From Aquisalinus flavus (GTDB lineage Bacteria > Pseudomonadota > Alphaproteobacteria > Caulobacterales > Parvularculaceae), in the NCBI RefSeq assembly GCF_022559625.1, contig NZ_CP042288.1, positions 1,078,409 to 1,142,408 of the forward strand: a stretch of 64,000 bases of DNA, in the 5' to 3' direction. The notes beneath the pieces are model-generated. The model was not told where the DNA came from. It worked only from the letters and a program-made list of their open reading frames with translations, and made no database searches. Position numbers and translations under genes: made by a program. Position 1 is the stretch's first letter; each line of letters begins with the position of its first letter. This document shows positions 61,051-63,342 of the stretch, one piece after another.

Positions 61051-61079
61051 AAAGCATTGTCATGAAGATGACATGCTTT
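61051..61079 (+). promoter_or_regulatory. Long hairpin in the cold-shock gene leader
   Basis: AAAGCA (61051-61056) and TGTCAT (61058-61063) pair exactly with ATGACA (61068-61073) and TGCTTT (61074-61079) with one bulged T and loop GAAG, giving a 12-base-pair stem. It ends 47 bases before the likely start of the cold-shock gene, so it may be a temperature-sensitive leader structure. Confidence 0.55.
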
Positions 61080-61126
61080 ACGAATGCGATTATGCTCTGC
61101 AGCAGGGAATGAGAGACGAGAGACAT

Positions 61127-61669
61127 ATGATGAATCAGGATCTGGGAGCCGACGAGACGGACGCAGACGCTGACGAGGAGTCCTTCCAAATCACCGGTAT
61201 CGTCAAATGGTTCGATACGGTGAAGGGCTATGGCTTCATCATGTCCGATCAGTCAGATGGCGACATCCTTCTTCATTCTTCCTGTCTCAAGCAAACAGGC
61301 CGCAGCGCCGCGCCTGAGGGGTCGACGGTGATCTGCGAGGCAGTCCGTCGGCCGAAGGGACTGCAGGCATTGCGTGTCATCAAGATTGATGAAAGCACAG
61401 CCGCACCGGTCCTGCCGTCCGAGGAGTACGCCCTGCCTGTAGAGCCAGCAGGTCAGTTGAAGACGGCCGAAGTGAAATGGTTCAACAGGGCAAAAGGGTA
61501 TGGTTTCCTGACGCAGGGACCGGGCACTGAGGATATCTTCGTTCATATGGAAACGCTGCGCCGGTCAAACCTGTCGGAGCTTCAGCCGGGACAGCGCGTG
61601 CTGGTTTCCTACGGCAAGGGACCGAAAGGCCTGCTCGCAGCAGAAGTCAGGCTCGATAGCGGCAACTGA
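61127..61669 (+). CDS. Double cold-shock-domain protein
   Basis: A 180-residue nucleic-acid chaperone with two cold-shock domains: about residues 23-89 ([21 protein letters not shown]2 DILLH) and about 113-178 ([21 protein letters not shown]2 DIFVH). The N-terminus is acidic (EEDADADEE-like). Two-domain Csp proteins are typical of alphaproteobacteria. The start at 61127 has GAGAG upstream; the frame opens to an ATG at 61073 which lies in the hairpin arm, so I reject that start. The leader carries a strong hairpin. Confidence 0.88.
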
Positions 61670-61672
61670 CGT

Positions 61673-62689
61673 CTATTCCTCGATCCGTGCCAGATAGTCA
61701 GGGCTCGGGCACTGGATCATCCGTGTCCGGCTTCCCCGCGTGCTGACGCTACAGCGCTCGACGAACGCAAGCAGGCGATAGGACGGGCAGGCGATCGGCG
61801 CGTTGGCATCCTGATCGTTGCGAACATAACACCCCGTCTCGATCAGGGTCAGATCGTCCGTATTGCACATGAAGCGGCCATAGGTGCCAGCGCCTGCAAC
61901 CACGGTGCAGCTCTTCCGGATATCGCCAATGGTAACAGTGCGCCCGGCGGGCAGGGTGATCTCGATGCCATCAATTGCGGCTTCGATTTCACCCGCGCGA
62001 TCCTGCGCCTGTCGCTCTGCATCGGATAGCCGGATACATTGCCCGTCTTTCTGCACATAGCCTTGCATGCAGGTCCAGTCATCCCCTTTATTCGTATACG
62101 TTGCGTTTTCCGGGATGACAAAGCCGCGGCAGCGACCATCCTCGAAACGCAAGCCGCGTGTACAGTCCGTCTCGCTGCCGCCGGCGGCAGACAAGCCTGA
62201 CGGCGCGCATCGACCGCCAGCCCGCTGATAGCCATCAAGGCAATGCCAGTCGGTGCCGCCCCAGGTGAGTTCTGCATTGGCCGGAACGATGACCTGGGCG
62301 CAGACCTCGCCATTCCGCTCGAACCCTTTCAGACAATACCAGCTATTGCCCTGCAGACGCAGGTCTGCATTGGCCGGCACTGCAATCTCGCTGCATTCAT
62401 AGCCGTCTCTCTGATAACCGCTCTCGCAGCGCCAGCCACGCCCGTCGATCGACAGGGATGCATTGACCGGGACATCGATCATTTCACAGCTATTGCCCTG
62501 ACGGCGAAAACCCTGAGAACATTTCCACCCAACGCCATCGGCTCGGGGTTCAGCATTTTGCGGAAAATCGACGCGCTGGGCCAGCACCTGACCTTGCAGG
62601 GCCAGCGACATGCACAGAACGGCAGGAAGGATGTATCGCCACATGAACGCTAGTCTACGCTGATTTGCCCGGCACGAACATTGCGCCAT
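61673..62689 (-). CDS. Secreted protein with six CX10C modules
   Basis: A 338-residue protein with a signal sequence (ILPAVLCMSLALQGQVLAQ). It then has repeats of about 32 residues, each reading roughly VPxNAxLxxxGxxWxC, then GYxRxGxxC. The cysteine pairs are always spaced C-x10-C: WKC...SC, WRC...EC, WYC...VC, WHC...RC, DC...RC and WTC...QC. A C-terminal part of about 110 residues with four further cysteines has no known family. I recall similar repeats in Rhodobacterales and SAR11 secreted proteins, function unknown. Start at 62689 has GGAAG nine bases upstream; 62644 is an alternative. Confidence 0.8.
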   Translation of the reverse strand: MAQCSCRANQRRLAFMWRYILPAVLCMSLALQGQVLAQRVDFPQNAEPRADGVGWKCSQGFRRQGNSCEMIDVPVNASLSIDGRGWRCESGYQRDGYECSEIAVPANADLRLQGNSWYCLKGFERNGEVCAQVIVPANAELTWGGTDWHCLDGYQRAGGRCAPSGLSAAGGSETDCTRGLRFEDGRCRGFVIPENATYTNKGDDWTCMQGYVQKDGQCIRLSDAERQAQDRAGEIEAAIDGIEITLPAGRTVTIGDIRKSCTVVAGAGTYGRFMCNTDDLTLIETGCYVRNDQDANAPIACPSYRLLAFVERCSVSTRGSRTRMIQCPSPDYLARIEE

Positions 62690-62771: not shown

Positions 62772-62848
62772 TGGTGACCCCGGCACGATTCGAACGTGCG
62801 ACCATCTGATTAGAAGTCAGGCGCTCTATCCAGCTGAGCTACGGGGCC
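62772..62848 (-). tRNA. tRNA-Arg (anticodon TCT)
   Basis: On the minus strand GGCCCCG pairs with CGGGGTC, discriminator A and encoded CCA. The anticodon arm CCTGA-CTTCTAA-TCAGA gives TCT. T loop TTCGAAT, length 77 bases. Confidence 0.96.
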
Positions 62849-62913
62849 ATTGAAAATCCTTATGGCGCATACCAGACATGCTTGGCCAGCGCGAAGGACG
62901 AAAAATCCGGGAC

Positions 62914-63222
62914 TCAGTGGGTCCAGGGTTTGCGGCGGCGGGCGCTGAAATTGTCGGAATAGGCCTTGATGACCGGCTTGCCGCCATGCGACTCCGAAAC
63001 CTTGTGCGGTATCCCATGTTCCGTCGCATAGGCAACGGCTGCTTCCTTGCTGTCGAATTTCAGCCGGACCTGATTGGATTTCATGTCATCGGACGATATC
63101 CAGCCCATCAGCGGATCGACCCGGCGCGCAGCGCTTTGCTCGAATTCCAGCACCCAGCTCCTGGTCTTGCCCTTGCCGGACTGCATGGCGGTCTTTGCCG
63201 GTTGATAGATGCGCGCGAACAT
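62914..63222 (-). CDS. NDUFS4-like complex I subunit (ETC_C1_NDUFA-type)
   Basis: A 102-residue homologue of the mitochondrial 18-kDa complex I subunit NDUFS4. Conserved are [15 protein letters not shown] (the start), [35 protein letters not shown] and the end [24 protein letters not shown] before the ATG at 63222 fixes the start; the longer frame runs through the tRNA-Pro gene and is not real. The gene lies apart from nuo genes, between two tRNA genes. Confidence 0.93.
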
Positions 63223-63265
63223 AAAACCCTCTTTATCGTGCAGTGACCCGCCATATTGGTTTCGA

Positions 63266-63342
63266 TGGTCGGGGCGGCAAGATTCGAACTTGCGACCCTC
63301 TGTTCCCAAAACAGATGCGCTACCAGGCTGCGCTACGCCCCG
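63266..63342 (-). tRNA. tRNA-Pro (anticodon TGG)
   Basis: On the minus strand CGGGGCG pairs with CGCCCCG, discriminator A and encoded CCA. The anticodon arm TCTGT-TTTGGGA-ACAGA gives TGG. T loop TTCGAAT, length 77 bases. It is the second proline tRNA of the window. Confidence 0.96.

Follow-up and report, generated by a model that had tools for sequence, protein, structure and literature searches.

Each of the two EGF domains of MSP1-19 from Plasmodium falciparum contains three disulfides (PMC3579805). BAD-1, a surface protein of the fungus Blastomyces, is made of tandem short modules with one disulfide each, and its repeats have 17-residue loops with a WxxWxxW motif and bind heparin (PMC3708853). 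We analysed a cysteine-rich repeat protein encoded in a 64,000-nucleotide stretch of the Aquisalinus flavus genome (the window). For the most part it is a variant EGF-like repeat protein, to which one orphan repeat domain is added.

An open reading frame for 338 aa extends over 61673-62689 on the minus strand. The true start is probably its internal ATG at 62644 (MWRYILPAV...), because the orthologue in Aquisalinus luteolus NH6-79 (L039/L005) begins there, with a stop just upstream, and because a clean signal peptide results. The gene then spans 61673..62644 (-), with its stop at 61673-61675, and encodes 323 aa, the length of the orthologue, which aligns without gaps at 69% identity; residue numbers of modules and tail refer to this form. 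Residues 1-22 (62579..62644, (-)) read as a signal peptide with predicted cleavage between VLA and Q, C11 within it lies outside any lipobox, and the orthologue is organised alike. All 18 mature cysteines are kept in the orthologue. Between the two genes dN/dS was about 0.13 overall, 0.09 in the modules and 0.18 in the tail, with dS near saturation. Modules and tail are both under purifying selection, and the gene encodes a real protein, predicted to be secreted. No sigma-70-like promoter was found for it.

The mature protein has six cysteine pairs with ten residues between them, as the preliminary description had claimed, and shuffling its residues 100,000 times gave six in only 13 cases. Its claim of a uniform spacing of about 32 residues did not hold, as the steps are 31, 31 and 31 residues, followed by 26 and 31. 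The core said to be shared by all six modules is found in five, which have W-x-C; the fifth pair (C161/C172) lacks the Trp and the NA motif. The five canonical modules are 31 residues each and follow VPxNA...GxxWxCxxG[YF]xRxGxxC. They are, all on the minus strand, module 1 (residues 23-53, W40-K-C42...C53, 62486..62578), for which AlphaFold gave hairpins at 31-33/40-42 and 46-49/52-55 with pLDDT ~78; modules 2 (residues 54-84, C73-C84, 62393..62485), 3 (residues 85-115, C104-C115, 62300..62392) and 4 (residues 116-146, C135-C146, 62207..62299), defined by sequence repeat and AlphaFold; and module 6 (residues 173-203, C192-C203, 62036..62128), defined by sequence repeat and Pfam. Degenerate module 5 (residues 147-172, C161-C172, 62129..62206, (-)) is identical in the orthologue in lacking the Trp and NA motif. 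There is good support for a secreted protein with a disulfide-pinned repeat: the orthologue keeps the CX10C spacing exactly, and each pair would form one disulfide. The 18 conserved cysteines might instead cycle or bind metal in a periplasmic redox or metal buffer, and several homologues have Crp/Fnr, GroEL, UspA-like or glutathione-peroxidase-type genes in the same island (the UspA and peroxidase assignments were made by eye). However, a CXXC motif is absent and the fixed W/G/Y frame round each pair looks structural, and we consider such a buffer very unlikely.

We compared the modules with known domains. Pfam EGF_MSP1_1 (PF12946), with a curated gathering cut-off of 27 bits, scored 27.7 bits for the 338-aa form and 32.2 bits for the 323-aa form, and it matched all 14 family members tested (E<=1; best E 4.6e-13). 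The sole plausible sequence match in the PDB was Plasmodium MSP1-19 (E 0.005 with the single protein, 0.001 with the family profile). In this alignment the bacterial cysteine pair corresponds to EGF C5-C6, the final cysteine of the bead before it stands at the place of EGF C1, and the remaining EGF disulfides are absent. Matches to phage head-fibre structures in the PDB and to D-lyxose isomerase in Pfam (E 0.1) were below significance. The AlphaFold check proposed beforehand gave two small hairpins per canonical module, as a recurring strand-strand, strand-strand pattern, in a full model with a mean pLDDT of only 55 (pTM 0.31) and a tail mostly below 50. Foldseek placed this low-confidence model closest to strings of EGF domains (NELL2/NELL1 EGF, Pvs25 and MSP1-19), and the highest DALI-scale Z for it was 3.2.

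The suggestion that the repeat might turn out to be an ordinary domain with a defined role, such as SEL1 or EGF, was borne out in part: the HMM gives EGF_MSP1_1, but the modules lack two of the three EGF disulfides, and no role for this family in bacteria came to light. Classical EGF domains have six cysteines paired 1-3, 2-4 and 5-6, whereas each module has two. SEL1 repeats are all-helical units of 36-38 residues, whereas the modules are predicted to be all-beta and have no Pfam Sel1 match. We describe the modules as probable minimal one-disulfide EGF-like beads because they combine the EGF_MSP1_1 match and EGF-like modelled hairpins with only the C5-C6 disulfide. Descent from an EGF domain and convergence on the same hairpin are indistinguishable at 31 residues. 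A literature search on bacterial EGF_MSP1_1, PF12946 or the module found nothing relevant. Pfam also returned weak resemblances to TIL-like (E 0.065) and Antistasin (best 0.28) domains, and trypsin-like peptidase genes adjoin two homologues (L046, and L087, read by eye), as might be expected of a small cysteine-rich protease inhibitor array in which each bead is a canonical loop for extracellular proteases. Those matches are below the cut-off, though, the CX10C loop has conserved W, G, Y/F and R, unlike the variable reactive site of an inhibitor, and a protease neighbour is absent at most loci; an inhibitor array is therefore unlikely.

The preliminary description placed the repeat in marine alphaproteobacteria, and this proved right: homologues are numerous in Rhodobacterales and Rhizobiales as well as in the order to which the window belongs. 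Standalone secreted arrays of 6-8 modules, annotated as hypothetical protein, are common in Alphaproteobacteria; a paralogue in the same genome (L002) has 38% identity, and module proteins also occur in Shewanella, Vibrio and Burkholderia. A search with the single protein reached the module family at E down to 2e-27, and the family profile, of which the window protein is itself part, matched that protein at E 2.8e-73. Among 180 modules the informative positions were G at -3, R at +4, G at +5 and Y/F at +6, the W and both Cys being uninformative because the collecting pattern fixes them. The bead family occurs widely among proteobacteria, and the libraries searched contained no description of it. 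Relatives were absent from phage records, PHROGs and viral contigs, so a phage origin of the window protein is unsupported.

Standalone W-x-C arrays and the window protein have in common a signal peptide and tandem CX10C modules with a spacing of 31 or 33, and in the window protein these comprise five canonical modules and one degenerate. The standalone arrays end in a cap module, NAHLxxSGNxWECxxP. In contrast, the window protein lacks the cap: module 6 has W-T-C-M-Q-G in place of the usual W-E-C-x-x-P and is followed by a 110-residue tail. Compared with the standalone arrays, the window protein thus adds one degenerate module and a 110-residue second repeat domain, and the tail takes the place of the usual family cap. 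Another added tail was seen on a Vibrio breoganii plasmid (L042:4992-5630), where a module protein has its own, different cysteine-rich C-terminal end.

The preliminary description had left the C-terminal 110 residues unassigned. They do lack a database assignment, but most of the region is clearly a second disulfide repeat array. Its last 78 residues contain six Cys in steps of 14, 12, 14, 12 and 14, the same as in the A. luteolus orthologue, and three 26-residue units of the form CX13C-x11 align within them. Random placement produced such a 14/12 alternation in 20 of 400,000 trials. With Cys counted, the self-similarity of the tail at a shift of 26 exceeded all 20,000 shuffles, and without Cys it was still unusual (p 0.006 for the window protein, 0.0003 for the orthologue). 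Cysteine spacing and self-similarity place unit 1 at residues 244-269 (61838..61915), unit 2 at 270-295 (61760..61837) and unit 3 at 296-323 (61676..61759), each CX13C and all on the minus strand. They are preceded by a linker (residues 204-243, 61916..62035, (-)) that AlphaFold predicts, at low confidence, as a helix followed by short strands. A model of the tail by itself hinted at a hairpin and a helix per unit, at a pLDDT of 44.

Of the six Aquisalinus genomes, only the window genome and that of A. luteolus were found to carry the tail. There was no convincing match in 62 genomes of the family and 385 of the class, no match in plasmids and nothing significant in the PDB (best E 0.039). The weak tail matches in other genomes (L025-L027, L029 and L092-L095) look like chance, as they fall in antisense frames and in a von Willebrand-type protein, a nucleotide kinase and an RNase-E-like protein.

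The gene lies downstream of the 3' end of a tRNA-Arg(TCT) (62772..62848, (-), ARAGORN) and tail to tail with a gene for a two-cold-shock-domain protein (61073..61669, (+); Pfam CSD, 107.5 bits), with 3 bases between the frame ends. In four genus mates this site is empty, with some 10-50 bases from the tRNA-Arg 3' end to the cold-shock gene; in the window, just this one gene (about 1.1 kb) fills the gap. The simplest interpretation is that a single gene was gained next to the tRNA, although the gene may instead have been lost in the other four genus genomes. In A. luteolus, one side of the locus still has RecJ, tRNA-Glu, YbjN and the cold-shock gene and the other side differs; no tRNA-Arg was found at the corresponding place. 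At 62772-63342 the window carries a block conserved in the genus, consisting of the tRNA-Arg(TCT), a gene for an NDUS4-like complex I accessory protein and a tRNA-Pro(TGG).

A Shewanella xiamenensis plasmid (L040:3014-4459) encodes a protein that begins with a hydrophobic, transmembrane-like stretch and a domain for peptidoglycan binding and continues with five nearly identical W-x-C modules, a fusion that would place the modules outside the cytoplasm. Genes for an Hsp70-family protein and an ATP-binding protein adjoin. Because of the signal peptide, the conserved disulfides, the EGF-like match and the Shewanella fusion, we favour, at about even likelihood, an exported, disulfide-oxidised string of beads that forms a periplasmic or extracellular stalk and holds out a binding tail. 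The binding or scaffold role suggested in the preliminary description is likewise an inference. The Sec signal peptide, as read from sequence, would export the protein. Each N-terminal bead would fold as a short hairpin that ends at W-x-C and another that is held shut by the CX10C disulfide, equivalent to the EGF C5-C6 bond, and the array would form an elongated periplasmic or extracellular stalk, resistant to proteases and stress. The CX13C units would probably each be a disulfide-closed hairpin with a short helix, and the domain of three such units, replacing the family cap, could act as the ligand- or envelope-binding part. Since the arrays of different family members have net charges anywhere between -16 and +9, a single electrostatic ligand class does not fit all of them, and a uniform cationic-polysaccharide binder was dropped.

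The neighbourhoods of other family members may point to a different role. DUF1611 is directly downstream of the module gene at 7 of the 21 distinct loci with neighbours read; where the loci were read further, a gene for an alanine-racemase-fold PLP enzyme comes after it, in genus mate G003 among others. A conserved cassette of a W-x-C module gene, DUF1611 and, where read, a gene for an alanine/ornithine-racemase-like PLP enzyme was seen at L081:4044-7388 (G003), L041, L043, L083, L084, L052, L053 and L058, and in many cases a Crp/Fnr regulator and small, conserved proteins of unknown function are close by. A DUF1611 protein is reportedly a D-glutamate N-acetyltransferase; no literature on DUF1611 with D-glutamate was found. 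These neighbours suggest that standalone members are linked to D-amino-acid or cell-wall chemistry. The module family as a whole might then be a cell-wall-associated binder tied to D-amino-acid/peptidoglycan metabolism under stress, the window protein being a diverged member with a new tail. Such a role would agree with the peptidoglycan-binding domain fused to modules in Shewanella, with a D-Ala-D-Ala-ligase-type ATP-grasp gene that overlaps upstream at one locus, and with Crp/Fnr regulators near several module loci. However, the window gene lies outside a DUF1611 context and DUF1611 was not found in its genome, and the association may reflect a single ancestral island because 6 of the 7 loci are Rhodobacterales-like. 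We regard such a cell-wall role of the family as doubtful, and for the window protein keep to the stalk with a binding tail.

We tentatively propose, as possible rather than probable, a family of one-disulfide EGF-like beads in which one lineage swapped its end cap for a genus-restricted, orphan CX13C repeat domain, giving an all-repeat protein of two repeat types with a new tail fold. If this is right, the bead would be a tractable model for the lower size limit of disulfide beads, and a young, lineage-specific domain would have been joined, beside a tRNA, to an array of older origin. For the family, the recurring DUF1611-racemase neighbourhood is a testable functional lead.

No sequence match was found between BAD-1 and the window protein. 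The two are alike in having tandem short one-disulfide modules, but the loop of the window protein is 10 residues long and lacks WxxWxxW. With EGF_MSP1_1, the first EGF module of Plasmodium MSP1-19, the likeness is in sequence: its core, VPxNA...W-x-C-x2-G-[FY]-x5-G-x-C, aligns with the bacterial module. Unlike MSP1-19, the bacterial bead keeps one disulfide and is present in 5-8 tandem copies.
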